A stretch of 54,641 bases of DNA from Heterotrichella gracilis. Its lineage: Eukaryota; Sar; Xanthophyceae; Tribonematales; Xanthonemataceae. The position numbers and the translations under genes are program-made. Positions 301 to 54,069 of this stretch are shown in pieces (within the stretch, counting starts at the first letter, position 1; each line of letters begins with the position of its first letter). The DNA lies in NCBI GenBank assembly GCA_032358255.1, contig JAULBX010025886.1:1-54641 (forward strand). Reading direction: 5' to 3'. The notes beneath the pieces were generated by a model. The model saw nothing but the letters and a program-made list of their open reading frames with translations. It ran no database searches and was not told where the DNA came from.

Positions 301-3300
301 GCCCCACGCCCGCCCCCGCCCCACCAATCACCTCCGATTGCTTCCCCTGGATGGATGATTGGGGCACATTGCTGCGGGGCCCCTGCGATGACTGCAATGT
401 CACAGTCAGTATACCCCCCTGCATGCAATTCCAGGGCCAGCCAATCGTCGACTCTCAGGTAAGCATGCATGCCATATATAAATATAATTTATAATAATTT
501 ATGATCATTTGATCATAATCGATTATGATCAAATTCCCGTGATGCACCAACCAGGAATACCTGCCACCAAACAGGACTACCTGCTCACATTCCTGGGCTG
601 CAAACATTAAACACCCTAAACCCTAAGCATTCCCCTCACAGGCCGGCAAACCCAACAACCTACACTCTATTCCCTAAATTTCCTTTCTTTCCTTGACAGG
701 TTGGCCTGTCCTCCAATGGCCAGCTGTTCTTCCCAGCCGCCTGCACCAACCAGGACTACCTGCCCACATTCCTGGGCTGCGGACGTCAAACCCTAACCCT
801 AAACCCCAACCCTCCCCTTACAGGTCGACAAACCTGTAGGCAAGCCCAGCACACTGTACTCTCTACCATAAAACCTAAAACCACTTTCCTGCCCTCGCAG
901 GTTGGCCTGTCCTCCAAATGGCCAGCTGTTCTTCAATGCCGCCTGCACCAACCAGGACTACCTGCCCACTGAGCCCACGTTCCTTGGCTGCAAACCCTAA
1001 ACCCTAAACCCTCAGCCTTGCCCTCCACATGCCGGCACACCCAAAACACTACACTCCATACCCTCAACTCTAAAACCCCTTTCCTCCCATTACAGATTGG
1101 CCTGTCCTCCAATGGCCAGCTGTTCTTCTCCGCCGCCTGCACCAACCAGGACTACCTGCCCACTGAGCCCACGTTCCTGGCCTGCGGTGCGCGCATGGCC
1201 CCCGCTTGGACTGACACCGACGACACCAGGGTGTACTACAGGAGGGTCAGCGATTCCCTGCTGCTGTTTACGTGGGAGGCAGGTAGGTTGACAAACTTTG
1301 AACATCGTTTCAAGTTCATGTATTATTATTTCAGTTAAGGGGGAGGCAGGTAGAGCGCCAGAAACCTTTGAGTATTCTGAATATTAATTGTACATTTATG
1401 AATGTCTTTAATGTACATAATGTACATATTCTTTTTGACGGCATAATCAGTAGTCCCTGAGCCCCATGATTTGTCTATAATTCAATTTTTTACAATGTGT
1501 TTATATCCCTGTCGTCATGCTGCAGGGTATTTCGACAGGGATGGCGGCCTGGTGATGCAAGTGCTGTGGTGGGCTGACGGCACAGTCCAATCCAGCTACC
1601 GCCAGGTGGACCCATACACCCACAGGGGAAAAATTGTAGGATTTGCCCCCTGGGGGAGTAGGAACGCCTCAGAAATACCCCCAATGGCGGCCGCCCCCTG
1701 GGTGGGGGTGACCTCCCCTGTAAATTTCACCTTCTCTACTGCCCCTTGGATCTACCTGGGGAGGGGCGATGCTGCTTGGGCGCAGCTGGGGGGCAAATAC
1801 CTACGGGTGGAATCTCCCCAAAATGTGGAGGATTTCTGGGTGCTCACGGCCGGCGAATTGTGCCCCTTGCCATCCCCGCCACCCTTGCCACCAGCCCCAC
1901 CGGCTGTGGCGCCATCCCAACAAGAGGCATCCCCCCCACCCCCACCGTATGGGTACCATTCTCCCCCTCCACCAGATGGCGTCAGCCCCCCTCCTGTGAC
2001 CCCACCACCACCACCATCACCCCCCCCGGCTTGTCCAATTCCCGACCCTGCCCCTCCGGTCCCCTCTGATTGCTTCCCCTGGGTGGATGATGACTGGGGC
2101 ACATTGTTGCGGCCCCCCTGCGATGACTGCAATGTCACGGTGGAAATCCCAGACTGCATGCACTTCCAGGGGCGGCCAGTCACAGACGCTGGGGTAGGCA
2201 GGAGACACAGTGGGGTTTGGCACATAGTGGAGCAGGGTGTTTGGCTATCAGGAGGTCATGGGTATTGATGGGCACCCCATTATGTAAAACATGTGTTCAC
2301 TTTCTACTATTTGTTTATGAATTACTAATGAAAACAAAATGTAAAATAAGAGCAATGCTGATTGTGTTTTCCTTTGCTTCCAGGTTGGTTTCACCTCCAA
2401 TGGCCAGCTGTTCCTCAACGCCACCTGCACCGACCCCTCCTTCCAACTCACCGAGGCATCCTGGCTGGGCTGTGGCGCACGCACCTCCTTGAACCCTAAA
2501 CCATAAAGCAAAACCCTTTGCCATCAACCATATGATGTAATTGAAATGAACACTCATTCTTCCCCCTCAGGTTGGCTTCACCTCCAATGGCCAGCTATTC
2601 CTCAACGCCTCCTGCACCGACCCATCCTTCCAACTCACTGAAGCATCCTGGCTGGGCTGTGGCGCGCGCATCGCCCCCGCATGGACTGACCTGGATCTAG
2701 TGCGCATGTACTATCGGAGGATCAACGACTCCCTGCTTTTGTTCACGTGGGAGGCGGGGTATTTTGAGCAAGAGGGGACGCTGTTGATGCAGGTGCGGTG
2801 AGGAATGTATCATTTGATAGTGGACAGAAACTTCCTGGCTCAGGGAATGCCCATTGTCTTGGTGATGCAGGTGCTGTGTGGGCAAGCGGCAAAACATTAT
2901 CCAGGCGGACCCACACACCAATCACTTCAGGACTTCACTTGCTTGATTGTTGATGTGTTTGTTTGATGCAGGTGCTGTGGTGGGCTGACGGCACAGTCCA
3001 ATCCAGCTACCGCCAGGTGGACCCTTACACCTACAGCGGCATGGTGGTAGGGTTTGCACCCTGGGGTAATGCCACAATCGGCGACGTGCCCCCCATGTCA
3101 ACCGCCATATGGTGGGGGGTGACCTCCCCAGCCAGCGAGTTGTATGATAACGCCCCTTGGGGGTACGTGGAGGAGACAGGGGAGGCGTGGGCGCAGCTTC
3201 AGGGGAAGTATCTGCGCCTGCAGACCCCCTGGAATGCGGGGGATCCCTGGGTGCTCACCGCCGGTGAATTGTGCCCCTCGCCATCGCCGTCGCAGCCTGA

Positions 3301-4690
3301 TGCATTCTCACCACCGCCACCACCGCCACCATCACCACCACCACCACCACCGCCATCACCACCGCCGGTGCCACTGTCACCGCCACCATCTCCACCATTC
3401 CCAGCAACCCAATCCCCACCGACGGCGCCACCGTCGCCGCCACCATCCCCACCACCACCGCCTTCACCACCGCCAGTTGTTGCAGGTAGGTGTGGCCGCT
3501 GCATGCGCCAGCGCGCCAACAAGGGCAGATAAAATGCGACAATTTAAGAAGAATGCAATCCTTTCTAAACTGTCATACTTCCTCATGACAAGCTGTGCAC
3601 ATACTGTGGTCCATTAGCACCGCCAGCATGGTCTGCCTATCGCCTCTGCATCATGATGCGCTGGAACGTGAAGCCATGGCCCTATGAGCATTTGGCTCCA
3701 CAAACCTGCTCCTTGCAAACAGCAGAACCAGCACCTTCATCCATTGGTGCACCAACAAATTGCTGCTCACTGCAGCTTGAGCCTACACCAGGCGCCAAAT
3801 CCTTAGACTAACAACCACGCTCTCCAACCCCGCAGGCTGCCTCTTTGGCAGTGACATGCAATTTGATGCCAGCGCAAATCGGCTGCAGATGGCGGGCACC
3901 CCCGCCCAGCTCATTTTGGCCCTTTCATCGCCTCAATCAGTGGTGGGCTCTGACATTGAGGTGCTGATCGGCGGTGACCCTGGTGCGCCTGTCAGCGTTT
4001 TCCCCTATGCTGATAGCAAGAACATCTTCCTCATCAAGGTAGGCGATCATCATCGGATGGAATAGAAATAAAATGCTGGACGGTCCCACCATGCCAGTAA
4101 TGCTTTTAACATTCGACTAGGCCAAGTACATGTATACCTTTCTAGATATTTAGAGCTGGGTTTTGTCAAGCAAACCTGGTGCGCCTGGCCGGTGAGCGGT
4201 CCCCCTATGCTAACACCTTTCTTGAGGCTGGCCTTTTCCAGTGCTCAGCAGTGCCCGCCATGCCAGAATCGCTTTTTAATAATTAAACAAGTTAGCAATG
4301 CCAGATAAGCATGCATGGTTATATGCCGATACCCTCAACCTTAGCAACCTGTTGAAATCTGAACCCATTGCTCACATGATTCCTCTCCCCATTGCAGGTG
4401 TACCACCCTGAGGACTACTGTCAACCTTCTCTACTTTCAAAACCACAAAATTGTAATTCAAACTGTTTCCCTCCCCGTTGCAGGTGTACCACTCCGAGGA
4501 CTACAGCGGCCTGGTCACTGTGCACCTGCCCGCCAGCCCGCTTGTGCGCACCCTCACCTACGCGGTGGTACCCCTGCAGACCCTGGCAGTGACTGACCCC
4601 CTCAGCAATGTGGAGCACATGTGCGCGGCAGACCCGGGGCTGGGGATGAGCGATGGTGGCTTCCCTAGCCCACCACCGCCAGAGGCCTAG
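1..4690 (+). CDS. Modular Pro-rich surface protein with NIDO-like units (5' partial)
   Basis: Exons: <1-458, 1096-1282, 1526-2193, 2571-2792, 2972-3485, 3836-4038, 4484-4690; phase closes at every junction. The protein repeats one unit at least twice: a Pro/Ser spacer (PPPPSPPPP type), a Cys-rich stretch (SDCFPW..DDW, CDDCNV), then a fold with 'SNGQLF', 'APAWTDxD', 'YYRR', 'LLLFTWEAG' and 'MQVLWWADGTVQSSYRQVD'. That order (edge strand, APxWxD, VYYR, WE, LxxDGT) resembles the NIDO (nidogen extracellular) domain; this is a family guess by motif only. A different C-terminal domain follows (3836-4690). Pro-rich spacers suggest a secreted, probably hydroxyproline-glycosylated cell-wall or matrix protein. 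The N terminus and signal peptide lie before the window. Introns hold several decayed copies of the adjacent exons, so earlier acceptors (700, 901, 2384) could be used in alternative splicing; the 901 copy has a one-base frameshift. Confidence 0.8.
700..991 (+). repeat. Two exon-edge echoes before exon 2 of the surface-protein gene
   Basis: Copies at about 700-781 and 901-991 repeat the start of the exon at 1096 (VGLSSNGQLFF..ACTNQDYLPT), each preceded by its own CAG acceptor and followed by CCCTAAA-type runs (about 787-805 and 991-1012). The second copy has an extra A in 'tccaaatgg' that breaks the frame. Both are read as intronic duplicates; use of the 700 acceptor cannot be excluded. Confidence 0.85.
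2384..2492 (+). repeat. Exon-edge echo of the exon at 2571
   Basis: Repeats the acceptor and first ~110 bases of the next exon (VGFTSNGQLF..), then runs into 'gaaccctaaaccataaa'. It is almost identical to 2571-2675 by eye, so the duplication looks recent. Confidence 0.85.
2861..2919 (+). repeat. Exon-edge echo inside the 2793-2971 intron
   Basis: 'gtgatgcaggtgctgtg' followed by a gapped match to 'ccaggtggacccatacacc' of the exon starting at 2972. The donor side (2786-2797, gatgcag|gtgc) and acceptor side (2965-2976, gatgcag|gtgc) carry the same bases, so this intron holds three copies of its own junction sequence. Confidence 0.75.
4168..4426 (+). repeat. Echoes of both flanking exons in the last intron of the surface-protein gene
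   Basis: About 4168-4230 is a decayed copy of 3979-4040 (CCTGGTGCGCCTG...CCCTATGCT...), ending near a donor-like GTGAG/GAGG. About 4395-4426 copies the acceptor and start of the last exon (GCAGGTGTACCAC..GAGGACTAC). A shared 'accatgccag..tgcttttaa' motif also occurs at about 4089 and 4258, suggesting a longer tandem duplication. Confidence 0.7.
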
Positions 4691-5920
4691 CCTGTGAGAC
4701 GTGCACCATGAGACTGTAATCGAGATCCAGAGTCCAGGCTCCAGGAGCATGAATACGCCCTAGCCCAAGGCCTAGATAGTATACATTGCTAGGCATTATG
4801 CATGGACTCTAGACCCTAGTCTAAGGCTACAATCATGGCATAAGACCTAGACCATGAGCCCACGCTATGAGCTGGCGTGTTGAGTCATGTTAGGTAGACC
4901 CATTGACCAAAGGTGTGAGCAAAACCGCCTGCAGGCGGGATGCCGCTATTATGAAAGGTTTATGTCACAACGCATTAACCAACACATTCAATGGCTTTCC
5001 CTGAAAGGATTGTTTCGTAAATGAACACTTGCAGCACTTAACTTGCACAGGCATACCTGTGCACCCCAGACCTTTTTACTGCTGCCATCGTCCTATATTT
5101 TTTAATGGTAATTTCCAAAGTGGCTGTGCTTGAATGCTATCAATTTATTCCGGGGCGAATCATGCAGTGCATCCTGGTTTACCTGGTTGCGTATTAGGTA
5201 CGCATAATTTCCTGAAATTTGCAGAATTGATCAGCGGACAGTTATACCTACTACGTTAGCAGAGTTGCAGTGTGAACACCAGTCCACAGGTGCTAGTGAT
5301 TTGCCCCTGTTTGTGGACCCATGATTTTCTCACCTATGGAGGCTACACACATGGCTGCAGCGGGTCTTGACAATGCTGATGGATCTCTGACACTTGGCTA
5401 TTTTTAGGGGGAACAATGTCATCGTTAAATCTTCACCAGCAGCTCTTGGTAACGTCTGACATTGCCTTGGGCGTTCTTGTCAGTTGCTTTGGGGTCTATT
5501 TGTCATTATTGTTAGTCGTCCATCGCCATGGTCTGCGTTTGGGCGTTTTACTTGTACCAGGTTTCTGCAGCCTGAAACCTCAAATAAGAACCAAAAGCTG
5601 TGCTGCAACTCATCAGTGACTTTGGATTTGGCCATTTGGCCAAACTGATCAGCTCTCTAGAAATTTAATGCAAATTAATTAAGAACGTACCCCCCGCGTT
5701 TTCGTGCATCAACCCCTTGGTCACCAAGTTGGTGACGTGCACTTGCATCGTTTGGGGCATTGATAAACACGCGAGCCTAGCAGCTGAGGTTGCAGAATAA
5801 CCCTGAACGCAAGCCTGTTGTTTGGCTGACAACCTCGAGGTCCAAAGGGCAGCAGCCACGCGGCGCTGAACGGGAGCACCCCCAAACAGGGTTTCACAGA
5901 AGCTGTTCCTGTAGGCAACT
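4691..5920. other. Intergenic region between genes A and B
   Basis: About 1.2 kb with no ORF that looks coding and no clear TATA box. It should hold the 3' end of the surface-protein gene and the promoter of the small mitochondrial-type gene. I see no repeat family in it. Confidence 0.5.
4715..4719 (+). promoter_or_regulatory. TGTAA polyadenylation motif after gene A
   Basis: TGTAA, the usual chlorophyte near-upstream poly(A) element, 25 bases past the stop codon. Confidence 0.45.
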
Positions 5921-6712: not shown

Positions 6713-7049
6713 AATACCTGGCAGCCAGAGAGGAGAGACAAACCTTGGCTCAAGGGTTAACTTGGCAGCCACAGAAATGGGTTCTTCAGCCTGCTCAACG
6801 TAGACCTGGGTATCAGGGAACGGGTCCCCGATTTTCTACTAGAATTGCCGCGCTATTAGGCTTTGCCTTGTCCATGGTTGACGTGGCTGCAAGGCCGGTC
6901 AGCGCTCCTTGTTATTATCCAGTGATATCACGCCCTTGTGTGCTCGTGCACAGCAGCAATTTACTCCTCTAATACTGCCAGTGCCCTGCCATCTCCATTG
7001 CTAGAACTTAGGTCAAGGCTGTAGTGGGTTCTGTCTACTTGGCTAAGAT

Positions 7050-8800: not shown

Positions 8801-11800
8801 ATGCTTGCCCTGCGAGCAGCTCAGCAGGCCTATGGTCAGTGGCCTGTGGCGCAGCCTGCTGCAGCGTTTGTCCTGCTACAACGAGTGATGGGCCAGGTAG
8901 GGAGGCATTGTCGGTGTTTCGAGTGTCGTTGCCCTGTTTTCTGAACCACCCTTGTGGCATCGCCCACATGCATGCGTGACCAAGCCATACATGCATTGTG
9001 GGTGGTGCAGGAGGGGACGCTGGCTACCATGGCAACGCCACAGAACCCTGTGCAGCCCGTTCCATACTGGCACCAGATCACCAACTCCAGAGCCTTCTGT
9101 TCCACACCACCGAACATAAACGGAGACAAAGACCAAACATCTCACCCATCGCAACCTGGCCATGCCAAACCAGAGACACCCAGCGACACAGATGGAGACA
9201 CCAGCCAGCTGGCTGTGCCTGGCAAGTCTCACAGCAACGACCCGGACTGTGTCCTGCCTCGCCAGCGGTGGGGGTCCAGCACGCTGGCAGCGTGGCGAGA
9301 ACACATACACGACAACTCCTACCTCCTGGCAGTCACTGCTAGCTCCATGGTGATGAGCATGTGCCACACGGGTAAGGACTCCCTGAATACCTGAGAACCT
9401 AAACACTAGACAGCTGTCATTGCTAGCTCCATTGGGATGAGCGTGTGTTACACGGGTGAGGGCTCCCTAAAACCCTAGAGGGCATATTGAGCTCAGAGGC
9501 ATAAACCTCCTTGTTTGGAGTTATAAAGCTCAGGCCGAACGACCAACTGGGGCTTGTGACCACCACTCGTGCTGGAATGCATTGTGCGTCATAACGATAA
9601 CATGGAACGAACCATGCGCCTCGGGTGCCGGGTGCCGGAGCTGCCCTTGTGCTGCCCCTTTCAACCTGAGGATTCTGCATGGATTGTGTTGATCATTATC
9701 ATTTACGTGCATTTGATTGCATTGATTTATTTTACCGATCACTCTATCTGCGTTTTTGAGTGGATTGGTTTATTCACCAGTATTGTGTTTAAATCATGTG
9801 CAATGCAGCGCTGGAGCCCGTGCTGTCGCTGTTCACCAAGGTTCCTTTCTCCAACTTAGGGGTTTGGGTTTGCATGGTGTCTGCTCAGGTATACATCTTT
9901 GTGCCACGCAGCGCTGGGGCCCGTGCTGCCGCTGTTCACCCAGGAATTTGGGGTGGTGGTTTTTGTCATAACCGATTATTTGATCTATTGATCATCATTT
10001 GAGCAATTATTTTGTGATGTGTGCCACGCAGCGCTGGGCCCCGTGCTGCCGCTGTTCACCCAGGAATTCGGTGTGGGTGCTGGCGCCATCGGCACCACCA
10101 TCTCGGCGTTTGCGGCAGCGCGCCTGCTGCTAAATGTGCCTGCGGGTATCATGGCAGAGCGCTACGGCAGGAGGCCGCTGCTCATATGGGGGCCCTTCAT
10201 CACGGGAGCTGGTGGGTACTAGCGTGTTAAATCTGCTCAAAACTGTGACATGCCAACTTGGCGTTTGTGGGTGGGTGGGATTGAACGCGCTACTACAACA
10301 CTTACAATTACATGTCCCCAGAGGGATGCATTCACCGGCAGTAGCCACACTCCGTGCATCCCTCCGGGAAACGCACCCGCAACATGCCCTTGCCAAAAGG
10401 AACACATGCCATCCATGCCCCTCCATCCATGTCCACTTGTCGCAGGCATGCTTGGCAGCGGCATGTCTGGCAGCTTTCATGAGCTGCTGGCGTGGAGGTG
10501 CCTCACGGGGGCAGGGTCTGCACTGCAGATGGGCGGGGCGCAGCTGTTTTTGGCGGACATCAGCACGCCAGCCAACCGGGGGCGGACCATGGGCGCCAAC
10601 CAGGTACCGATATGCATTCAATGTATGGGGAATGGAATTGAAATTCAGGATGCTGATCAAACAGCAAATAATGTAGTGGCTAGGATCAAAGTCAATAGCA
10701 ATAAGAAAGCAATTATCTACATGGAAATGGCAACAGTTGCGTAGAAGCTACTGGATTAAGCTGAAGCTCGAAACTCAAATCCGGCATTCGTGAGCATGTT
10801 ACCAATCACCAACCACCAATCATCATGTCTAACTGTAACCACGCTCCGTTGCCAGGCTGCGTCACTGCTGGGCGTGTCGATTGGCCCTGCTGTGGGGGGC
10901 ATGCTTGCTGAGACGGGAGGCCTGCGTGCCCCCTTCACAGTGACAGGGGGGGCGGCTGTGCTGGCGGGGCTGTACGGGTGGTGGCGCCTGCCAGAGACCA
11001 AACCTCCGGGGGACGCTCAGCCGGATGGCTCGGTGCAGGCATCCACGCCACGGTAGGGAGTGCAATTCGAGAAAAACTGATCAATTTTGGTCGCAATACC
11101 ATCATGCATTCACCAAGGCATGATGGTGCTTACCCTTTTACCCTTTCATTTATATTCTGCATGTCATGGTCATGACATCATCATATCAACATAGATTTGA
11201 AGTACCTTCACATTCATCAAGGCATGGTTGCGGTTGCAAGTACCTGTTGCACTCACCAGGAGGGCGGCTGGGGGGGCTGTGTTGTCGACAATCAACAAAT
11301 TGTTCTATTCTCATTAATCAACTCTTTTTCAGTGATTAATTTGTTTTATCACCCCCTGCCACGCGCACATGCAGGGGCTCCAAGATGGACGCCTGGCGCA
11401 GCATGATGTCCAACCGAGACTTCCGCGCTATTGCCCTGGTCAACGCCATGCTGTTCACGTCAGTCACTGGCAGCAGAGCGGTGCTCATGCCGCTGCTGGC
11501 AATCAACACCTTTGGATTCACCGCAGCGTCGCTGGGTAAGAACTGACTGCATGCGTTCACATTGCACTCACTGTGTGTAGGCTGGATGCCCAATCCCCCA
11601 TCATGAATACGGTAGCCACGATTTGGAATGGGCGTCATGGTTGTGGTCAATGCTCATTAATTAAAAGTTAGAATACTAACAAATAATATAAATTCATTTG
11701 CTGGTCACATCTGTTACCGGCATCCTCGCAGTGCTCGTGCCCTCTCCTGGCTGTCAGTGTGTTGACATTTGGCCTCACGGCAGCATCACTGGGCAAGCAT

Positions 11801-13162
11801 GGCACTGGAAGATATAAGCCATCCACCCCCACACACTGTATGTCTGCCGGCACCCGTCTCAATACCCACCCCACCCCCACCCCCACCCCCTGTCCTCCCA
11901 CGCAGGTGCCATATATGCCAGCATGACGCTGGTCAACCTGCTGCTGGACCCCCCCCCCCCTTTTGGGTCATTGTATGGTCATGGAAATTGGGTTGGTATG
12001 GAAATTAGTAATTTCAAATTACACATCATCTAGCAATTTCAAATTACACATCAGTTAGGAATCTGATCCAGATTCCCATGATCCATCCAACATCATCCAA
12101 CAATGTAGCAAAGGAAAATAGGTATTGTCTGTTCCCCTCACAGTGTTTCCGGCCCTCCATGACCTCCCTCTATCTCTTCTCCACAGGTGCCATGTTCGCC
12201 AGCATGGCGCTGGTCAACCTTGTGGCAGTCATACCCGCATCGCTGGCGGCAGATCGCTTTGGCCGCAAGCGGACCATCGTGCCCAGCGGCCTGGTCATGT
12301 GCGCGGCACTTGGGCTGATGGCGGCGGCAGGTGCGGAATGGATTTGCAATGCGTTAACAATCGTTTCTGTTTAAAGTACGATGACAATGACAGCAACGGT
12401 TACAATCACAATTACAGCCACACATGCAGCTGAAGTTGTGCCCAGCAGTGTGGTCATTTGTGCGATCCTGGGCCTGATTACTTCCAATCTACACGTCGCA
12501 ATCCAATCTGATCCCACACACTCACCATCCTTAACCTCTGACCACCCCCCATTGCAGACAGCGTGCACCTCTTCATGGCAGCAGCCGGCCTGTTTGTGCT
12601 CAGCAATGCATTCATCGGGCCTTCGCCAGCGGCCTACGCAGCGGACGTGGTGCCGGCCCACCAGCGGGGCATAGGGCTGGGCATGTACCGCACTGCGGGT
12701 GATCTGGGGCTGCTCATCGGGCCCGCCTGCCTGGGCTTGCTGGCAGATGCAAGCTCTGTGCAGATGGCGCTGCAGGTGGGGGTATATCCTTTTGCGCCGC
12801 TCTTGGAGGTTTTAGGGTTTGTTGTAGGGTTGGGCATGTACCGCATATGAAGGGCTATGCCCAACTGCTAGTCGGGCTTGCTTGCCTGGGTTTGCTAGGG
12901 GATGCCGCCATTGCAGATGGCTGTTGGTGAGGCCTCGTTGGGGTCCATGAAGTTAGCAATATAGAGGAGTAGGTCCCTGTTTAGGGTGCTGCAAAACAGT
13001 TAAGACTAATCAAATCACCGAGCTTTGCCTTACAACGTACTCCTTTCACAGGTGAATGCGGGGGCCATGATGGTCACCATGGCCTACTTTGCGCTGCGAG
13101 CCAAGGAGAGCGGCCCCGCTGCGGAGGCGGTTGGCAGCGATCAACACGACAAGACCTCGTGA
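8801..13162 (+). CDS. Major facilitator superfamily transporter (MFS_1 type)
   Basis: Exons: 8801-8896, 9011-9371, 10032-10211, 10446-10603, 10856-11052, 11375-11535, 12187-12330, 12558-12775, 13052-13162; 541 residues, phase closes throughout. The first exon is a guess: an Ala/Arg-rich leader (MLALRAAQQAYGQ..). Without it, ATG 9029 gives 503 residues. Twelve hydrophobic spans in two halves of six. Each half carries MFS motif A after its second span: GIMAERYGRRPL (about residues 191-202) and LAADRFGRKRTI. 'LGPVLPLFTQEFGVGAGAIG' and 'RGRTMGANQAASLLGVSIGP' are typical of drug/H+ antiporter-like MFS. Substrate unknown. The leader could target an organelle. Nearly every intron carries echoes of its neighbouring exons. 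Confidence 0.85.
9412..9468 (+). repeat. Echo of the donor end of the MFS leader exon
   Basis: Repeats 'gctagctcc..tggatgagc..tgt..cacgggt' from 9332-9376, donor included, just inside the intron. Confidence 0.85.
9792..9955 (+). repeat. Two echoes of the acceptor edge of the exon at 10032
   Basis: Copies at about 9792-9860 and 9899-9955 repeat 'tgtgccacgcagcgctggg' and 'cgtgctgccgctgttcaccc' of 10018-10075. The nearer copy is closer in sequence than the farther one. The 10032 acceptor is the one that keeps a long open exon. Confidence 0.9.
11712..11946 (+). repeat. Echoes of both flanking exons in the 11536-12186 intron
   Basis: About 11712-11796 is a diverged copy of the upstream exon end 11474-11538 (GTGCTC..CC..CTGGC..CA..ACATTTGG..TCAC.GCAGC.TC.CTGGG). 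About 11902-11946 copies the acceptor and start of the downstream exon (CAGGTGCCAT.T..GCCAGCATG.CGCTGGTCAACC from 12183). A C-rich tract separates them. Confidence 0.85.
12433..12481 (+). repeat. Echo of the exon 12187-12330
   Basis: 'gtgcccagcagtgtggtcat' and 'cctgggcctgatta' repeat 12274-12326 in order, lying about 100 bases inside the following intron. Confidence 0.75.
12826..12935 (+). repeat. Echo of the exon 12558-12775
   Basis: 'gggttgggcatgtaccgca', 'gggcttgcttgcctgggttt' and 'ttgcagatggc' match 12671-12777 with small deletions. It follows a 'gttttagggtttgttgtagg' run right after the donor. Confidence 0.8.
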
Positions 13163-42200: not shown

Positions 42201-43820
42201 TGCAAGAAGCTCCAAGAGGATCACATGAATAACCTGGAGAAGAGTAGGCGCCACTATGAAGAGTTGAAGGCAAGTTCTGACCATACTGCTCCTATATGGT
42301 TGACAACAGAGCTCCTCACTCAATGCTGTCCACATGCACACAATTAGGAGGGCAGAGAAAATTGCCGCATGTTACCCAGAGATCATGATATACAAGATTT
42401 ACAAGATTTTATTCGACAGTCACATATGTAAATGATATGGTCTGACAGCTCATATTTTTTGTGCAGCAAAGCATTGCGCACCTGAATGAGAAAGCTCTGG
42501 AGGAGGCGCACGCAAAGCATGATGAGGCAGTGGCTGCAGGTAGGGAAACAACAAGAGACAGCTTATTGGTGGATCCTTTTCCACTTTGTACAACGCACTT
42601 ACCTTTGAATGTTATTCGCTTTTTTTTAATCATTAGTAAATTGTTGGTTAAGTTTTGTTTCTTTTCCATTGAAATGACATTGTACTTAATTCAAAATGTA
42701 CCCTTTAATAAAAAATGATTTATTTTTGTGCCTACTGCAGTTGTTGCTGAGCACGAGGAGAAGGTGGCATCTGCACAAGCTGAGCACGCTGCAGAGCTCG
42801 AGAGGATCCAGCAGCACAATACTGCTGCGTGGCCAGCTGTGCAGGTGGCGCGGGTGGCTGGGGCTGAGCTGGAGCGGGTGGTGCGCTTTGTGGAGCACAT
42901 AAGGTGTGGACTCAGTGTCACTTCAGCACAATCAGGAGGCAAATGTGGGGCATTTGTGCCACATTGGGGCAGCCACCGCCAACGCATGTGAAGCGCTCGG
43001 GATGGATATCTCCACCGTGCTATGTTACCCGCACAGGTCACTGGAAACCAATTGGTACTCACCGTACGCAACTGTGACAAGCCATATTTTACTTATTTCA
43101 GGCTCTGCTCCCAGAAGGCGGCCATCGGCACCAAATTCAAACACGGGGCATCCAACCTGGCCTGCACGGGTAGAGACACGCACACTCACACAGACCCAGA
43201 TTCCAACCAGAAAACCTAAACCCTAAAACCGCAAGCCCTGAAACCTCACGTGGGCGTGTTGTCGCAGGTTCTGCTCCCAGAAGGCGGCCATCGGCGCCAA
43301 CTTCAAGCAGGGCGCACCCAACCTGGCCCGCGTGGTTGAGATGCGTGCGCTCACCGAGGCTCTGGCCAAGGCATACCCCGAGCTAGGGTCCACAGAGTAC
43401 CCCTGGCCTGACGCGCACATGGGGGGCCAGGTGGGGTACGGGTGGCACAAGGCGCCTGTGCCGCAGCCGCTGCCTTCTCCCAACAAGATCATGGACAAGA
43501 TCCGCAGGATCATTCGGGGCAAGCCCAAGAACGAGAACGTGCCACAGGTATGGAATTGCACTTTCCTGCCGCCCCACTTTTAATATGTATGCAAGCACAT
43601 GGAAAACACTCAAATTGCATGGAATGACGGCATTAGTACGCAGATAGCACATCACATAAAATGTATGTCCTTTACGATTCGTCCAACATGATGCGTGTTC
43701 CTGCAGGAGGATGCCACTGGGCGCGTTCAGTCCCTGTCTCCCAAGCGCCGGCGCCAGGGCTCGTCACCCGTGCTATCTGCATGGGACTATGCCATCCAGC
43801 GCCACGCAGAGAGGCAGTGA
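24292..43820 (+). CDS. Giant VWA-domain / disordered / coiled-coil protein (~3,498 aa)
   Basis: 38 exons, phase exact throughout: 24292-24387, 24496-24687, 24896-24982, 25139-25330, 25647-25751, 25943-26110, 26299-26512, 26739-26879, 27042-27202, 27631-28076, 28247-28423, 28648-29393, 29543-30454, 30729-31291, 31680-31833, 32059-32224, 32443-32647, 32814-32957, 33210-33323, 33656-33795, 34074-34244, 34478-34646, 34898-35468, 35667-36017, 36310-36481, 36801-37068, 37253-38437, 38759-38952, 39162-40266, 40540-40687, 40883-40968, 41149-41234, 41426-41543, 42150-42269, 42467-42539, 42741-42903, 43268-43547, 43707-43820. Layout: a Pro/Glu-rich N-terminal region of EPELxxP type (1-280), disordered stretch with an acidic run (280-1400), vWA domain (about 1452-1661), short helical part (to ~1820), very long Ser/Pro/Gln/Ala disorder (to ~3100), coiled coil (3104-3368), conserved-looking basic C terminus. 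The vWA is closest in style to VWA3A/VWA3B, so a cytoskeletal or ciliary scaffold is possible. Three introns use GC donors. A split into two genes cannot be excluded. Confidence 0.8.
25364..25510 (+). repeat. Three echoes of the donor end of exon 4 of gene F
   Basis: Copies of 'gttgcagcccatgcccagcc' (25302-25338) at about 25364-25403 (ttgcagcccatgctcagtta), 25432-25462 (ttgcaacacacacctagtcg) and 25468-25510 (tgtaacccacgccaagtcat). Each is preceded by a TTTAGG/GGTTT run, giving a ~75-base higher-order repeat. Confidence 0.8.
26873..27056 (+). repeat. Duplicated junction flanking the 26880-27041 intron
   Basis: The donor side reads gacag|gtgacaagca and the acceptor side reads gacag|gtgacaagca: 15 identical bases, each containing AG|GT. 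This is the footprint expected if the intron arose from a tandem duplication of an exon segment holding AGGT. Confidence 0.7.
27512..27578 (+). repeat. Echo of the acceptor edge of exon 10 of gene F
   Basis: 'tgcagttcaagat' through 'cgcgcagctccttgatgaac' and 'cacgaggttgctcccctgca' copy 27627-27686, acceptor included, then run into 'ttgaaccctaacgatgctgc'. Only the frame-breaking differences and the position mark it as a decoy. Confidence 0.9.
32059..33323 (+). other. von Willebrand A domain encoded in gene F (exons 16-19)
   Basis: 'LLIMDVSGTM' gives the first MIDAS loop (DxSxT instead of the usual DxSxS), 'GQTNLTAVL' supplies the MIDAS Thr and 'IYVFSDGLSD' the Asp. It ends with 'AIHTVGFFPEDK..GERFLKQVSDLRGGTTW', the strand-helix ending seen in VWA3-type proteins. 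Metal binding is therefore likely. The segment 'YETSKYAHEG..VPTDESVVND' is an insertion between the second strand and the MIDAS Thr. Confidence 0.85.
37253..38437 (+). other. Decapeptide repeat in disordered exon 27 of gene F
   Basis: From about 37330 to 37520 the exon encodes a degenerate ~10-residue repeat of the type DQGAxPGxxGQG (YGEDAAA, YDQGADPDLNAQGAEPGVYG, EGTDPEVHAQGGTPGV), i.e. a ~30-nt coding minisatellite. The rest of the exon is Ser/Gln/Pro-rich low complexity with no domain. Confidence 0.7.
40318..40340 (+). repeat. Short echo of the donor end of exon 29
   Basis: 'catggctacaggtgggagcc' repeats 'cgtggctacaggtgggttac' (40254-40276), donor included. Confidence 0.6.
40540..42903 (+). 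other. Coiled-coil-coding exons 30-36 of gene F
   Basis: Seven short exons encode about 265 residues rich in Glu, Lys, Ala and Leu with heptad spacing and no Pro until 'AAWPAVQ' (VKEELERVRAENEVRRRL, ENLKKEWERKCQEISQANER, NQRRIEEAKQRFDEACKKLQ, EHEEKVASAQAEHAAELERI). A long parallel coiled coil, probably dimerising, is likely. Confidence 0.8.
41660..41804 (+). mobile_element. LINE (non-LTR retrotransposon) 3' end fragment
   Basis: In the intron 41544-42149, one frame encodes 'LIKCDDQTSISNLLRVQRLR' then 'WFGHMMRMSDTRLPRQIF' and a stop at 41802-41804. The WFGHxxRM..RLP ending is the classic tail of the reverse-transcriptase ORF of L1/RTE-like elements. Only the last ~45 residues remain; no endonuclease or catalytic RT motif is present, so it is a 5'-truncated dead copy. 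Confidence 0.75.
43101..43176 (+). repeat. Echo of the acceptor edge of exon 37 of gene F
   Basis: 'ctgctcccagaaggcggcca' and 'aacctggcc' copy 43263-43341 almost exactly, preceded by its own CAGG. It is followed by 'aaacctaaaccctaaaacc' (about 43214-43232). Confidence 0.9.
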
Positions 43821-44632: not shown

Positions 44633-46146
44633 TCACGTCTCGCTGCTTGCCAGGCACTTGTTGACCATCTCCAGCAGGTTGGGGTTCTCCAGCGCAGCCG
44701 CCACCCGCTCCTTGTCGTTCAGCTGCTTGTTCACAGCTGCCTCGCTGGAGTGCGCCCCCTCCGCTATGCTCACGTCCACCTTGAACCGCGGGGGCAGCGC
44801 ACGCAGCAGCTTGACCCTGGACAGCAATCGTGAGATTCTTCAAGGGTCCCAGTAGGGTTTTACCTAATTTTAGGGTGTGGTAGTGTAATATCGAAGATCG
44901 CGGCCGGGTAATTACTAGGGTCCTGCTAGGGTAATCATAAGAGTTGTAGTAGGCAGCCCTGACGGCAGAACAGGGGTCTGCATGTGTGTACGACAGGATA
45001 CCTCATGCGTTGTACAGCATTGTCAGCCTGCAGAGATGGGTTGTAAAAAGAGCGCCGCTGGCATGCCGTGTGGTCACTGAGGCTGGGTGCAGTGAGGCGG
45101 GGGGCAGCTGGGGCAAGGTGGGTTGAGCAAGTAGGCTGCAAGAGAACCAACCCCTACCGTATGCACAGTCCTATGAGCGTGGCCATGCTGCACTTAAACA
45201 CCCTAAAGAACTGTGTCACAGACTCCCAGGCAAGGGTAGGTTAGGGTTTGCGGTCCCTACCGTATGCACAGCCCTATGAGCGTGGCCATGCTGCAGTGCT
45301 GCACTGTGGGTGTGAACTCCACGCTCACCGCCCCCCCCGCGTCGTCCACTCGGATGAAGTCCTCGCCCACCACATTGAGCTGCTCCAGTGTGTACGGGTG
45401 CTCGGGGTCGGTGATGTCGCGGATGTGCTGCAACAGGGCCAGGCGGATGGTGTGAGGTGTAATGCATATGTATGTTGCGGTGGCATGTATACATATGCCG
45501 CGGTGTTAGGCCGGGTGTCATGCAAACATGCTCCAATTGTGCTGCAGCAGAATGTGCAGAGGCAGGGGCAGAGGGGCGGGTGAGTGTAACCCAACAGGGT
45601 AGAGGAGCGTGTGGAGTACAATGCAAGAGGGTAGAGGAGAGTGTGAGGTTGTGAGTCCAACAGGCGGAGTTGTGTGTTGGGTGTAGTGCATGCATGACCG
45701 TTGTCCCGGGTGTGCTGAAGCAGGGGTAGTGGAGGGTGTCAAGCAACAGGGCGTAGGGTTCTAAATGTGCAACAGCAGGGTGTTTGGACGTTATGCTTCA
45801 ACAAGACAGAGGAGTTGAGACAGGAGCTGTGAGGTAATGCATGCATATTGCAGTCGACGCAAACAGGTTACTTTTGGCTACCCAGTTGCCACTGGGTATA
45901 GGAATTTTAATTGAAGTATACCACGGTACTCAATTGCACCTTGGAACATATGTATGCGCGGGCGTATGGTGGTGAAGAAAACGTGCACGATGCATGCATG
46001 CAGATAACTAGCTGCTATGTTGCGCATACCTCGAAAATCTCCCAGGCGTCTATCAGTTCTCGCCCTGACGTGCTTACTTCGCTTTTCTCTGCCTTCCTCG
46101 TCTTCCGGGTGTACAGTACCGGGTCGGGGTTGATCAGGTCAGCCAT
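44633..46146 (-). CDS. CIAO2B: MIP18-family Fe-S cluster targeting factor (AE7/CIAO2B type)
   Basis: Exons on the minus strand: 46146-46030, 45427-45261, 44816-44633; 155 residues, the usual length for the family. [17 protein letters not shown] opens the protein. The DUF59/MIP18 core follows: '[20 protein letters not shown]', '[20 protein letters not shown]', '[20 protein letters not shown]' and '[20 protein letters not shown]'. The Cys in [10 protein letters not shown] is the conserved reactive residue. In the cytosolic iron-sulfur assembly pathway this protein works with MMS19 and CIAO1 to deliver 4Fe-4S clusters to DNA polymerases, helicases and other nuclear enzymes. All expected motifs are present, and both splice junctions fall in conserved sequence, which confirms the model. 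Confidence 0.95.
45150..45196 (-). repeat. Echo of the donor end of MIP18 exon 2
   Basis: 'cctaccgtatgcacagtcct' and 'atgagcgtggccatgctgca' copy 45250-45298 with one or two changes, ~100 bases inside the intron, donor included. A 'gtaggttagggtttgcgg' run lies between source and copy. Confidence 0.9.
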
Positions 46147-49215: not shown

Positions 49216-49782
49216 CGGGGTGTGCAGGCAGCGTTGGGCGAGCCAAGAATAGTGCATGTGAAAGGAACGGACTTGCACTTGTTGCTATAGTGCACTAGCT
49301 GTTTTACCACTTTCGGTATCTACTGCACTGTACTGGTGTAAGTATTCTTCAAAAACCTGAATTCGTTTCAGTCAGGGCCTCCCCGCTGGCCGAAATTGCC
49401 CCCCTTCGTGTGCACAACACCATGTTGCTTTTGACACCCTGTTCACTAAAACGACCCAACCCTGGATAGAGTGCAGCACAAAGAAGCCTTTCATGCAGCC
49501 CATCAACTGCCGGTTCTGTGGGTTTTAGTAGTTCCACCAGTGGGTGCTCCAATCGCATGCCCGCAGCACCGTGCTTCAGTGCTTTCGTGAACTGGCCAAA
49601 TCGGCCCTATGTACGAGGTACTAGGAGACAACCCCAATGCTCCGCCGTAGACCACCTCAGCACACGCCTTTAGACCAAGCACGCTTGTCTAACCCTTGAA
49701 CCGTTAGCTGCTCGGTCTCTCCGACTGGGCGTGTGTCACTGTGGCAAAGTCAACACGGCCTCGGCCGAGGCAAGGGATAGCC
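49216..49782. other. Divergent promoter region between genes H and I
   Basis: About 570 bases between two oppositely directed start codons. No TATA box is obvious on either strand. 'cttttgacaccctgttcact' and other single-copy sequence only. Confidence 0.5.
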
Positions 49783-52700
49783 ATGGCAGCGACAGGCGCC
49801 AAACTTGCCACCACCGTGCTCCTGAACGTGGCCAGCATCGTGGAAAAGGCGGACGAGGCGGTCCTGCCGGCGGTGTACGCGTTCATCAGCGCCTCGTTCA
49901 AGGCTAGCCCCTCACAGCTAGGCGCACTGACGCTATGTCGGGCGATGGTACAGGTAAGCCCCTGACTGCACACCCTACAACAGCTCTCACGGCGTCGTTG
50001 CATGCTGTTTTGGAGCTCAACCGTGGTGTATCCACACCGTTTTCTCTGAGTCGCGCTTTCATGGGGATATGCATGCATTGTATGCAGCACCCACCATGCA
50101 CCCACCATGCCCTAGCCGTATACCACCCCGACCCGTAAAAACACCTCGCACCACTGCTCATCAGTACCGGTCCCTTCAAACCAGCCTGGCCACCCACCAG
50201 CCATAACCACCAATTTTCATGTCCTCCCCTGTTTCATCCACAGACCATCGCCTCCCCTGTGAGTGGGTTTCTTGGGGACCAGCGGGACCGAGCGGGGATC
50301 GTTGCCTTTGGCTGCATGCTGTGGGGCATCATGACATCGTTCATCGGCATCTCGTCAACCCTAGAGCAGGTGAGGGTGGCGCACAATACCCTACAGGATC
50401 CTTCAAAACCCTAATGCGAGTGAGAGTGGGGCACAATACCCTAGAGCACCTCCGCAACCCTAGGGCAGGCGAGGGTGGTCACACGGGTACCTAGGGCGCC
50501 GGCTAGTGCACATGCACACCTGGTTAACACGGGTTGGCTGCACAATAGACCCCTGGACATTGCTCCTGGCCAGCAGGGAGTCACGTGGACTCAACCCTGC
50601 TAGGGTTTAGGGCCAGATTGGTTGCCGCACCATGTGTCGTAGCCAGGCAAACGAAAGAATATAGAATAAATAGATGCCAAAAGCGTAAATGGATTGTGAC
50701 TACAGTCTTGCAAATTATACACCTTTTCCTCCATTTGCAGGCCATGGTATGGGCGGCGGTGAATGGCATTGGCTTGGCCCTGGTCATCCCCTGCATACAG
50801 AGCCTGCTTGCGGATTATTACCCCGCGGAGAGCAGGGGGCGCGCTTTTGGGATGATGTCGCTCACATCGACGTTTGGTAGGGCGGCGCAGTGATGAAGCA
50901 CCCTGCAATTGAGCACACTCAGAACTGGTGCAAGGACATAGTTAGTCACATGCATGTCAGCGCTTCAGCCGGCTTAGCAATCAGCCTCGCAAATATGGCG
51001 CAAAGCAATTCTACCCTGGCGTTTTGACCGACAACAATTTTGTGGCATCTGCTGTGTGACTTGGCCCATGTGGCCCTAGGCTTTGCCTCTCGTACCTAAT
51101 TAAACGTCATGCATTTGGGTACGCGTTTGTCCTGTATCTATCCTATAGTATCTGAGGTTCTCAACTATGCTTTGTTACCAGCGCCTACATTGCAGATCAA
51201 GAATATGCCATAAGCTTTGGCAAGCCCTAAAGCCTACATCCATTCACCTGCAGGCGCAATGGGCGCGGCTCTGTTTGCCACCAACATCGGTGCCTACCGG
51301 CCGCTGGGCATAGAGGGCTGGCGCTTTGCCTTCCACTGCATCGCTGTAGCTAGCCTGGTCACCGGGCTACTGGTTCGGGTGTATGCTGTCGATCCCCGGC
51401 ACAGCCACCAAGGGAGCGGGGGGGGTCCCACCTATGCGCTGGTGGGTCCCCTGCAAGAGGGGGGGCACGGCCACCTGGCCACAAAGGGGAGGTAATAATA
51501 GCTCGCTGATTCAGTATACATGTGACTTTAGAAAGTAGCCATCATTGTTATGTCTGTTATTCATTATAGGACTTATGATAAAGATTGGTAAGAGCAGTGC
51601 AGAAATAAAAAGTGCTTGTCGATACATGTGGCATTTGAAGTGTTCGCTCTAAGTTCTAGATCTACAGTCCAAACCCCAAAACCCTCGACAAATTTACCAC
51701 CCTAAATCCTGCACCTGCAGGGGCCTGTGGGAGCAGATCAAGGAGATGTGGGACGACGTGCGGGGGGTGCTTCGCGTGCGCACCTTCCAGGTCATCATCT
51801 TGCAGGGGGTGTTTGGTTCCATCCCCTGGTCTGCGCTTGCCTTTTTCACCTGGTGGCTGCAGCTCATGGGCATGTCTGACTTCACTGCAGCTGCCCTCAA
51901 GGCGGTGTTTGACATGGGCTGTGGGCTGGGAAGCCTGCTGGGGGGCCACCTAGGTGAGCGCTGATGTAGCCTTACTTTTCAGGGTATAAGGGTTTGTGAT
52001 GGTAGTAAAACCCTAAGGGTGGGCACCTCGCGTTGCCACCTGGTGGCTGCAGTGCATGGGCATGTCTGATATCACTGCAGCTGCTCTCAAGGCGGTGTTT
52101 GACATGGGGGGTGTGCTGGGCAGCCTGCTGGGTGGACACCTAGATAAGTTTTTTGGGCAGTAGGCCTGCAGGTGCGCTCATCTGACACACGTGGAAGCCA
52201 CGGTTGGGGCTCAGGCGGTAGGGGGACCGGATGGGAGTGATAAAGGGTATTGGTCGTGGTTGGGTAGGGGGTTAGGGTTGCCCAGCCTGCACCCCATGTG
52301 CAGCGTGCTCATGGGCCTGTCGGCGCAGCCCCCCCTCCCCCCCCCCTTCAACGCACCCCTAGCCCGCCGGCGCACCCCACACCTGCAGGCAATATGACCT
52401 CGCGCCGCAGGCCCAATTGATCACCTTATCTACTCCTCGCCCCCCCTCCTGCAGGCGACTGGGCCTCCCGCCTGAGCCCCGACCATGGCCGCATTTATGT
52501 GTGCCAGATGAGCGTCACAGCAGGCCTGCCGCTCACAGTGCTGCTGCTGCGGGGCCTGCCGGCGCACCCCGGGCTGACACCTGGCGTGTACGCGGGCCTC
52601 ATGTTTGTCATGGGGCTGACAATCAGCTGGTGAGGGGGCTTGATGTCAGAAGCTTGTAAACCCTAAACCCTACATGCATACCAAATTCTATCAGACGATC

Positions 52701-54069
52701 GGCTTCCTAAATGTATGGTGTTTGGTAGGGTAGAGGGGGCAAAGGGGGTAGGTAAACCTAGGGCCACGTGGGCTGACCTACTCCAGCAGGACCTCAAGTC
52801 GCATGGGATCAATAGATGGTTCAAACAGTGCCAGGAAAGAGTTGCGCCGCATGTGCAAGACTGACTGCTAATCTGGCTGTTTTGCTGGAATGCATGTAAC
52901 TAACTAACTAACTAATACCAAATTCTAAACTGCAAACCCTGGCAACGCACCCCAGGCTGACACCTGGCGTCTATGTGAGGTTCAAGTTGATGTGGCTGGC
53001 CATCAGTTGGTGAAGGGGCTAATTGTAGTAGTTGAAGAGGTTGCAAACCTTGTACATCCGTATGCACACCCTAGATCCAATCGTAACCCCTGGCGGCCAA
53101 TCCTGGGCTGACACCTAACTTGCTGGGCGGCTGTTTTTGATGGGGCTGACAACCAGCTGGCGAGTCAACCCTCCATTTCACGAATGCCCATATCCACAGA
53201 ACACCTCAGGTCAATGTAACAACGCTTAGGGTCAACACAATGCTTGGCCGCGCACCCTTTATTCCCTCTTTACACCCACGCCACTACGCTTTCCCACAGG
53301 TGTGGCGTCAACAATAGCGCCATGTTCGCCGATGTAGTCCCCCAGGCCAAGCGCAGCAAGGTGTATGCCTTTGACCGCTCATTTGAGGGCGCCATCGCAG
53401 CATGCGCAGCCCCCGTGGTGGGCATTGTGGCGGAGCGCGTCTTTGGGTTCGATCGGGGGCTGCTGGATGGGGTGGGGATAGACCCCAACCACAAGAATGC
53501 AAGTGCGCTGGGGTCGAGCCTGATGTACTGCCTGCTCAGCACGTGGGTCCTGTGCCTGGTGTCGTACACAGGTGGGTGGTGGGGTGTGGGGGGGGGGGTG
53601 CGGGGGGTGGGGGAATCATGCGCATGAGAAGGGTGGACCGGCCTTCAGGGTGAAATTCATGCTGTTGGATGGGTGTGTGGTGATCTCAGCCTGAGATGCG
53701 CGTGCGCTCGGGTCGAGTATGGACCTGCCGCCTGTTTACCACCTGAGCACAGTACTTGGTGTCGTATATCGAGGGTAGTGCTGGTGGTGGTGGTGGTACA
53801 TGTGGACAATGGGGTAGAGGTACAGCCCCAGCCCACAAATATGTGCTGCAGCCCAGTCGCCCAGCCCACTGCCGTATGACACGCGGCCATTGCCGCCTAT
53901 CCCACCCATGACGGCTTATCCCCATCCATGGCCGCCTATCCCCACCCATCCCACCCATGGCCGCCTATCCCCGCCCACCCTTTCCTTGCATGCACACCTT
54001 GCAGGCCTGCACCGGTGCTACCATCGCGACAAGGGAATGATTGAACTAGTGGACAAGGCGGAGCACTGA
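49783..54069 (+). CDS. Plant-type MFS carrier (spinster-like, At4g36790 group)
   Basis: Exons: 49783-49953, 50244-50369, 50741-50876, 51254-51491, 51721-51953, 52455-52629, 53300-53571, 54005-54069; 471 residues, phase closes throughout. Twelve predicted spans. Signature segments: 'NVASIVEKADEAVLPAVYAF' in span 1, 'LALVIPCIQSLLADYYPAES' with 'RGRAFGMMSLTSTFGAMGAA' in the first half, 'FGSIPWSALAFFTWWLQLMG' after the central loop, and 'AMFADVVPQAKRSKVYAFDR' with 'SFEGAIAACAAPVVGIVAER' near the end. These match, from memory, the land-plant group of At4g36790, whose substrates are not settled. The His/Gly-rich central loop (DPRHSHQGSGGG) is variable. Several introns contain echoes of neighbouring exons, and a possible alternative last exon lies at 54301-54422. 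Confidence 0.9.
50372..50490 (+). repeat. Two echoes of the donor after exon 2 of gene I
   Basis: 'aaccctagagcaggtgaggg' (50358-50377) is followed by 'aaccctaatgcgagtgagag' (about 50408) and 'aaccctagggcaggcgaggg' (about 50456), each followed by 'tgg(g)(cg)cacaatacccta' or its remnant. A ~50-base tandem repeat unit that contains the splice donor. Confidence 0.85.
52033..52150 (+). repeat. Near-intact echo of exon 5 of gene I
   Basis: 'tgccacctggtggctgcagt' through 'gctgctctcaaggcggtgtt' and 'ctgctgggtggacacctaga' copies 51848-51960 with few changes. It would still translate (WWLQCMGMSDITAAALKAVF) but lacks a clean acceptor. The youngest-looking echo in the window. Confidence 0.9.
52938..53165 (+). 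repeat. Two echoes of the end of exon 6 of gene I
   Basis: Copies of 52558-52634 (GGCGCACCCCGGGCTGACACCTGGCGT...CAATCAGCTGGTGAGG) at about 52938-53016 ('ggctgacacctggcgtctat', 'catcagttggtgaaggggct') and 53094-53165 ('ctgggctgacacctaacttg', 'atggggctgacaaccagctg'). Both end at donor-like sites; CCCTAAACCCTA occurs at about 52658-52672. Confidence 0.85.
53697..53776 (+). repeat. Echo of the end of exon 7 of gene I
   Basis: 'gcgtgcgctcgggtcgagta' and 'tacttggtgtcgtatatcga' with intervening matches copy 53501-53577. Diverged, donor side decayed. Confidence 0.75.

Follow-up and report, generated by a model that had tools for sequence, protein, structure and literature searches.

Introns of the xanthophyte alga Heterotrichella gracilis contain same-strand copies of the edges of the exons beside them, and tracts of the alga's own telomere repeat, TTTAGGG, often lie between exon and copy. 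We call these copies echoes. They were first seen in a 54,641-nucleotide stretch of the genome (contig JAULBX010025886.1 of assembly GCA_032358255.1, here C338:1-54641), referred to below as the window, and a wider sample confirmed that they are real and extend beyond it. We think it likely that the echoes are direct repeats produced by the repair of staggered breaks, often with telomere repeats as filler. An initial annotation of the window had read them as the product of a frequent process that tandemly duplicates short DNA around exon-intron borders, an interpretation that our analysis supports in part.

Copies of exon edges in neighbouring introns

The assembly comprises 68.5 Mb in 903 contigs. 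Beyond the window we sampled 20 other 10-kb stretches, 17 of which were used in the gene models and counts. The remaining three (L002, L010 and L014; guanine-cytosine content 35-38%) were excluded before training and counting. A gene finder trained on the window and the 17 stretches themselves gave 339 exons and 289 introns, and all exon borders used here are its predictions. Its splice consensus was AG/GTRRG at donors and TGCAG/G at acceptors (the slash marks the exon border), and it recovered the seven exons of a major facilitator superfamily (MFS) gene that had been read by hand. The spliced MFS transporter from the window matched database proteins at 52-55% identity at best: two unnamed proteins, followed by proteins of Myrmecia, Parachlorella and Apatococcus. 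These matches point to a trebouxiophyte-like green alga as the source. Pfam matches of three further window models were to homocysteine S-methyltransferase, FeS_assembly_P and MFS_1. The three excluded stretches show hardly any local direct repeats and no telomeric tracts; one of them, L002 (C1:20001-30000), lies on a contig of 894 kb, and all three perhaps belong to another organism or to an organelle within the assembly.

An echo was defined as a same-strand match between an exon and an intron, with a threshold of at least 32 bits for counting pairs and at least 30 bits for listing matches. Adjacent exon-intron pairs gave such a match in 56 of 578 cases, against 12 of 97,393 non-adjacent pairs and 2 of 578 adjacent pairs compared on opposite strands. 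This is essentially the self-alignment that the initial annotation had proposed as its own check, and the pattern passed it. Echoes of at least 32 bits occur in 49 of the 289 introns. The preference for direct orientation is also seen when exons are ignored: local repeats no more than 1.5 kb apart in the window form 52 direct and 5 inverted pairs, and the window with all 20 stretches holds 151 direct and 33 inverted pairs no more than 500 bp apart.

The 81 matches of at least 30 bits divide into 54 that reach to within 6 bp of a splice site, which we call edge echoes, and 27 that do not. Edge echoes retain the splice dinucleotide in 22 of 27 donor cases (GT) and 23 of 27 acceptor cases (AG), roughly what their overall identity would lead one to expect. 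As the initial annotation held, echoes are not the property of one gene family. Of the 54 edge echoes, 37 lie in loci outside the window. They are unevenly spread, with none at threshold in 9 of the 17 other stretches. The window itself holds 17 edge echoes and 25 matches of at least 30 bits, fewer than the 35 or so copies first counted there.

The repeats singled out in the initial annotation are present at 51847-51953/52037-52143 (107 bp, 90%), 43099-43165/43265-43331 (67 bp, 88%) and 45152-45192/45255-45295 (41 bp, 98%); the one described as barely visible, 12279-12319/12438-12478 (41 bp, 76%), is borderline at 30.1 bits. Echoes differ from their originals by 0-29%, and because of this spread a simple assembly error, which the annotation had named as a possible refutation, is unlikely.

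The edge echoes of the window and the telomere-like tracts associated with them are as follows.

613-678, minus strand: telomere-like tract of low purity, in CCCTAAA sense on the plus strand
700-766, plus strand: 5'-edge echo of exon 1096-1282, including AG (97%, 67 bp)
788-813, minus strand: telomere-like tract between neighbouring copies
901-990, plus strand: second 5'-edge echo of exon 1096-1282, including AG (93%, 90 bp)
992-1078, minus strand: telomere-like tract in the spacer between echo and exon 1096-1282
2384-2483, plus strand: 5'-edge echo of exon 2571-2792, including AG (93%, 100 bp)
2492-2532, minus strand: telomere-like tract in the spacer between echo and exon 2571-2792
4398-4418, plus strand: short 5'-edge echo of exon 4484-4690, including AG (90%, 21 bp); spacer without tract
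9413-9455, plus strand: 3'-edge echo of predicted exon 9011-9371, including GT (84%, 43 bp)
9809-9841, plus strand: echo of the 5' edge of predicted exon 9912-9955; third copy at 10020-10076
11906-11939, plus strand: 5'-edge echo of exon 12187-12330, including AG (88%, 34 bp); spacer without tract
21278-21302, plus strand: 5'-edge echo of exon 21459-21725, including AG (96%, 25 bp)
21326-21363, minus strand: telomere-like tract in the spacer between echo and exon 21459-21725
22561-22649, plus strand: telomere-like tract in TTTAGGG sense after exon 22375-22562
22653-22714, plus strand: 3'-edge echo of exon 22375-22562, including GT (94%, 62 bp)
22722-22787, plus strand: telomere-like tract between copies of the donor edge of exon 22375-22562
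22793-22823, plus strand: further copy of this donor edge
22878-22904, plus strand: telomere-like tract between copies of this donor edge
22910-22938, plus strand: fourth copy of this donor edge, with GT
22981-23000: tract beyond the last copy of the 22501-22938 array
27517-27572, plus strand: 5'-edge echo of exon 27631-27967, including AG (88%, 56 bp)
27574-27591, minus strand: telomere-like tract, starting 1 bp past the echo 27517-27572
43102-43163, plus strand: 5'-edge echo of exon 43268-43547, including AG (89%, 62 bp)
43205-43245, minus strand: telomere-like tract in the spacer between echo and exon 43268-43547
45158-45192, minus strand: 3'-edge echo of exon 45261-45427 of the FeS_assembly_P gene (also minus strand), including GT (97%, 35 bp); short telomere-like piece in the spacer
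52037-52143, plus strand: echo of the 3' edge of MFS exon 51721-51953, GT lost (AT) (90%, 107 bp); telomere-like pieces in the spacer
52657-52672, minus strand: telomere-like tract after MFS exon 52455-52629
52935-53009, plus strand: old 3'-edge echo of exon 52455-52629, including GT (75%)
53085-53159, plus strand: second old echo of the 3' edge of exon 52455-52629, GC for GT (73%)
53701-53771, plus strand: faint echo of the 3' edge of exon 53300-53571 (72%, 35.6 bits)

The window also contains repeats of other kinds. A 130-bp direct repeat (8055-8182/8320-8451, 95%) lies outside predicted exons, with no telomeric cluster listed between its copies. An internal duplication at 73% (1553-1878/2964-3289), in a gene with proline-rich stretches, is separate from the echoes. 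One of the five local inverted repeats (52154-52222/52464-52535, about 70 bp, 75%) has an arm at the start of exon 52455-52629.

Telomere repeats between exon and echo

The telomere of this alga is TTTAGGG: contigs C70, C140 and C609, among others, begin with arrays of this repeat, and C173 ends in them. Its rotations, on either strand, are also the most enriched 7-mers of the introns, with 848 occurrences in 108 kb compared with 84 in shuffled sequence; predicted exons have 33 in 65.5 kb compared with 15. Of the sequence of echo introns 6.0% is covered by exact 7-mers of the repeat, as against 1.6% in the other introns, and a tract is found in 29 of the 40 introns with an edge echo as against 54 of the 249 without one. 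The sample holds 95 tract clusters in 225 kb, about 0.4 per kb: 79 in 108 kb of introns, 16 in 51 kb of unassigned sequence and none in 65.5 kb of predicted exons. Another 7-mer, CATGCAT, which has a palindromic core, is overrepresented in the introns of the sampled loci as well (94, with 28 in shuffles).

The tracts lie preferentially in the spacer between exon and echo. Counting the nearest echo only, we could use 43 of the 54 edge echoes, 35 of them in introns with a single echo. The single-echo spacers contain a tract in 18 of 35 cases, whereas random segments of echo-free introns do so in 63 of 860. Within 25 spacers the tract lies no more than 6 bp from the exon-interior end of the echo in 11 and no more than 6 bp from the splice side in 3, and the exon-interior end is the nearer one in 16, with one tie. 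Acceptor spacers favour the CCCTAAA orientation (18 to 4, p 0.004), and donor spacers show no bias (10 and 12). The excess at acceptors may reflect selection, because tracts carrying TTTAG would add acceptor-like sites just upstream of the real one. Four arrays, two in the window (560-1185 and 22501-22938), one in L017 (586-1007) and one in L005 (8137-8510), have a tract between neighbouring copies, which suggests repeated rounds of the process or unequal exchange.

Searching from the tracts instead of the exons gave the same association. Direct repeats that lie on the two sides within 250 bp and score at least 18 flank 33 of 93 tract clusters. Inverted repeats do so at 0 of 93 clusters, and 21 of 465 points picked at random in introns have flanking direct repeats. 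We then took 16 interior sites with five perfect units, (TTTAGGG)5. Sites inside the window (L001), at contig ends (L024, L035, L041) and in windows overlapping arrays already counted (L025-L029, L032, L034, L036-L040, L042-L050) were left out, as were C460, C556, C607, C660, C701 and C872. Direct repeats scoring at least 16 flank 5 of the 16 sites: L051 (64 bp), L053 (31 bp), L058 (21 bp), L059 (25 bp) and L060 (17 bp). A sixth, L056, has a 22-bp direct repeat with a lower score of 14.5. The repeat of L051 is 95% identical and abuts a pure tract on both sides, and in L051, L058 and L059 both copies touch the tract with no gap. Over 50 tract entries with repeats of at least 17 bp, some of which share a repeat, repeat length ranges from 17 to 134 bp. 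One interior site considered, L022, lies 143 bp from a contig end; its two arrays (929-987 and 1500-1556, one of the variant TTTTAGG) are each followed by the same non-telomeric sequence and are perhaps a subtelomeric repeat.

By the gene finder's predictions the tracts of L051, L053, L058 and L059 are intronic and that of L060 lies outside predicted exons. As these too are flanked by repeats, the event does not look specific to exon edges, contrary to the initial idea of a process acting at exon-intron borders. The ends of the tracts are also informative, although the cases are few: at the presumed priming end 1-3 bases are in register with the telomere repeat in 5 of the 6 repeat-flanked intact sites, and at the opposite end 4-7 bases match in 3 of 6. 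This is as expected from priming and joining by microhomology. The sites thus combine the alga's own repeat, duplication of the target and register at the priming end, as in interstitial telomeric sequences inserted at double-strand breaks. The genome encodes a telomerase reverse transcriptase RNA-binding domain, in two exons on C626. Where two tracts of opposite sense are fused, the G-rich one precedes the C-rich one in 4 of 4 cases within 20 bp, 5 of 7 within 60 bp and 10 of 17 within 150 bp, an order that is suggestive only.

We propose that nicks at offset positions would leave the intervening stretch, E, on both ends of the break, and that both copies would be filled in. One end would acquire TTTAGGG repeats, for which telomerase primed by the 3' end is the most probable source, and once the ends were joined the product would be E, a telomeric tract and E'. 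Less probably, the repeats would be captured telomeric DNA or copied telomeric RNA. The same event would take place within introns and between genes. In an exon, the insertion would survive only if E spanned the exon-intron border, so that the splice site was doubled and the tract and one copy were spliced out. The spliced-out copy of the exon edge would be the echo, decaying from then on, and renewed breakage or unequal exchange would build arrays of up to four copies.

Even a short run of TTTAGGG units contains stop codons in all frames, whichever way it is oriented, and because the tract brings these stops an insertion into an exon should break the gene unless it is spliced out. The accessible text of PMC7215372 makes the same point about stop codons in telomeric repeats. 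We infer that the bias towards exon edges reflects survivorship, not targeting. Fill-in and joining of long 3' overhangs have a precedent in mouse and human cells, where, according to the available part of PMC8355091, they yield tandem duplications by way of CST and polymerase alpha, the same factors that act in the fill-in of telomere ends.

Several observations weigh against repair with telomeric filler as the whole account. Seventeen of the 35 single-echo spacers have no recognisable tract, and the mean distance of the tract to the two spacer ends is alike (26.1 and 27.1 bp, 26.6 expected). In 9 of 35 single-echo introns a tract is also present in the outer flank, taken at the length of the spacer or shorter, which is above background, and a tract lies beyond the last copy of an array (22981-23000); a single step therefore does not explain everything. 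Ten of the 16 intact sites lack a direct repeat at their main tract, and echoes are uneven among loci. The absence of clusters from exons is partly circular, because the gene finder avoids stops. An attempt at dating failed as well: the purity of the tracts shows no correlation with the identity of the repeats (rho 0.007, n=50; rho -0.08 for the 38 tracts of at least 25 bp), and although the 5 pure long tracts do stand apart (p 0.014), that split was chosen after seeing the data.

Some of these points would suit plain tandem duplication, our first reading, in which units of 60-400 bp are duplicated at borders, copies that keep the splice site are silent and the rest are lost, and the telomere-like sequence is an incidental intron microsatellite. 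It would account for the spacers that lack a tract and for the residual homology between spacer and outer flank seen for 32 of 53 echoes (rank 5 or better among 100 controls), although telomere-like sequence on both sides can raise this score. Small tandem duplications at staggered breaks are moreover described in the accessible part of PMC8355091. In line with the initial annotation, short local direct duplications are indeed common here; what it overlooked was the telomeric tract. Duplication alone does not explain why a tract is seven times commoner in spacers than in random intron segments, why the search from the tracts found so many more repeats than at random points, or why pure tracts abut the repeats of L051, L058 and L059. 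We set it aside as the sole explanation and regard it as unlikely.

A second possibility is that the tract came first, inserted without duplication, and formed a fragile site at which later breakage or slippage copied neighbouring sequence across. The intact tracts without repeats, the enriched outer flanks and the lack of correlation between purity and identity would all fit, and telomeric tracts are prone to breakage in the account given by the available text of PMC11626172. Copying at a later date would hardly be expected to leave the tract touching both copies without a gap, as it does at the young sites L051, L058 and L059, and we consider this order of events improbable.

The combination of direct repeats of variable length with a simple-repeat insert would also fit target-primed insertion, by retroelement copies reduced to their tails, whose 3' end is the telomere repeat and whose target-site duplications are long. 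A search for shared non-telomeric sequence beside the tracts, which might also have come from telomerase RNA, yielded no firm result: no 10-mer recurs there in more than four places. The short stretches read at the 16 intact loci contain no longer insert with a shared body. We think a retroelement origin extremely unlikely.

Decay of the echoes and a candidate new intron

The initial annotation had suggested that the echoes supply decoy splice sites and alternative exons. Differences between echo and exon fall on codon positions 1, 2 and 3 in 105, 84 and 180 cases, out of about 990 sites each. Of 53 echoes, 16 are broken, 12 by a frameshift and 10 by a stop codon, some by both; the other 37 are still open and in frame, and short. 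The excess at third positions would be explained by a neutral copy compared with an exon that is free to vary only at its third positions; constraint on both would raise it too. First and second positions have nevertheless changed in 10.6% and 8.5% of cases. Judged by their sequence, the echoes look unconstrained and non-functional, diverging as unconstrained sequence does.

Homologous proteins point the same way. The MFS protein aligns with its Myrmecia homologue from residue 8 to 450, without an extra copy at the positions of the echoes. The SSU72 gene (L016, 2110-5126, minus strand) is a more elaborate case, with its N-terminal exon in four copies, telomere-like spacers between them and copies at further exon edges. 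The gene model contains three of the N-terminal copies, and a solved SSU72 chain aligns to a single one of them; the protein in which each doubled exon was used once, chosen by hand, matches Pfam Ssu72 over 1 to 189 of 189. Thus in both families the homologues carry a single copy. That the echoes are genuine alternative or mutually exclusive exons would be in keeping with the open frames of the 37, with the GT or AG that most retain and with the excess of third-position changes, but in view of the changes at the other codon positions, the frameshifts and the stops we set this explanation aside as very improbable.

One site may represent a whole new intron. L056 976-1062 is a predicted 87-bp intron that contains a pure telomeric tract of 41 bp. 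The exon end before its donor (AGTTTATGTTCTTCTCAG) recurs before its acceptor (AGTGTATGTTCTCCTCAG) with two changes, and the two open frames join without a stop. It was found incidentally during checking, and its two exons have modest scores (5.9 and 5.6). Neither Pfam and PDB nor one protein search with the fragment, whose length limits such a search, yielded a homologue. From this arrangement, the intron may have been created whole by one insertion with a 22-bp duplication, a candidate based on one case.

The topology of L056, in which the donor is that of copy 1 and the acceptor that of copy 2, occurs with at least 15 of 24 matching columns in 1 of 322 introns, L056 itself, and in 2 of 20,000 mismatched pairs. 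With at least 12 of 24 columns the figures are 8 of 322 and 193 of 20,000, near chance. Intron gain by tandem duplication on the AGGT model was therefore rejected as a general rule: echoes keep the site type of their parent, and there is only one candidate. The earlier proposal that the copies are raw material for new introns retains this one candidate in its favour.

A wider reading, to which we would give an even chance, is that staggered breaks healed by telomerase are a main source of intron DNA in this alga and occasionally of whole introns. Genes would be broken repeatedly and the ends sealed with telomere repeats, without harm, because the long overhang doubles the splice site and the scar is spliced out each time. 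The L056 intron would then have been born in one step, its 87 bp consisting of the pure 41-bp telomeric tract, a short filler and both copies of the 22-bp duplicated exon stretch, with splicing from CAG/GT of copy 1 to CAG/ of copy 2 and the frame restored. If this is true, introns buffer the genome and allow it to tolerate telomerase at internal breaks.

Relation to known systems

The closest parallel is with the short interstitial telomeric sequences of mammals (PMC2246262, PMC7215372). As far as the available text of these papers goes, they resemble the tracts described here in consisting of the species' own repeat at a break, with changes typical of end joining, bases in register and sometimes a target duplication from a staggered break. 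In the same text duplication is confined to a minority of mammalian inserts (4.6% in rodents, 16% in primates, 4.5% in horse), and no human tract is reported in an exon. In this alga, by contrast, about a third of the clusters have direct repeats, of up to 134 bp, the clusters number about 0.4 per kb, and many are at exon edges with a doubled splice site. We regard the present case as a variant of the mammalian break inserts, in which staggered breaks would be sealed with telomeric filler, the duplications are very long and splicing would rescue the gene.

Other systems share some of these features. The neointrons that staggered breaks have produced in Daphnia are similar, in the part of PMC4202315 available, in their direct repeats at introns, repeated rounds of breakage and growth of introns by repair. 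They differ in that the exon-intron repeats are 4-12 bp and telomeres go unmentioned in that part, whereas here the repeats are 17-134 bp, the filler is telomeric and most events lie within existing introns. Direct repeats near the splice sites of many taxa have likewise been ascribed to insertion and error-prone repair, and in the accessible text of PMC11782384 these are 4-30 bp (mean 11.4) and lie between intron ends; ours are long exon-edge copies inside the intron with telomeric sequence between. The telo boxes of Arabidopsis and rice are short telomere motifs for which telomerase action on free 3' ends has been proposed. In contrast to the tracts in this alga, they peak in 5' untranslated regions and are not overrepresented in introns, and direct repeats are not mentioned in the portion of PMC3022908 at hand.

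Intron gain by tandem duplication, as outlined in the available parts of PMC3443670 and PMC2891723, also involves local exon duplication with splice sites, and L056 resembles it in using the donor of copy 1 and the acceptor of copy 2. The typical echo differs, keeping its parent's site type inside an existing intron. Introners are insertions that interact with splicing, with green algae among their hosts, but in the available text of PMC9860276 they form families of related transposon-like introns with duplications of 3-9 bp. We rejected an introner origin because the repeats here are 17-134 bp long and the inserts are telomere repeat; no search for intron families was made.

Telomeric break inserts in mammals and short staggered-break repeats in Daphnia introns were thus known, and it is the density, the repeat length and the rescue by splicing that look new. 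Among the titles and abstract openings listed by our searches of open-licence literature, none ties telomeric inserts to intron growth or to splice-site duplication. How introns grow and originate is an old question for which direct footprints are scarce. If our reading is true, it links telomere repeats at internal breaks with splicing, shows how insertions into exons can become tolerable and provides a natural record, legible in the sequence, of overhang length, filler and outcome. Whether intronic telomeric repeats affect splicing is a question already raised in the accessible text of PMC7215372. Scaled from 225 kb to 68.5 Mb, the 54 edge echoes and 95 tract clusters would correspond to more than 10,000 of each, if the sample is a fair one.

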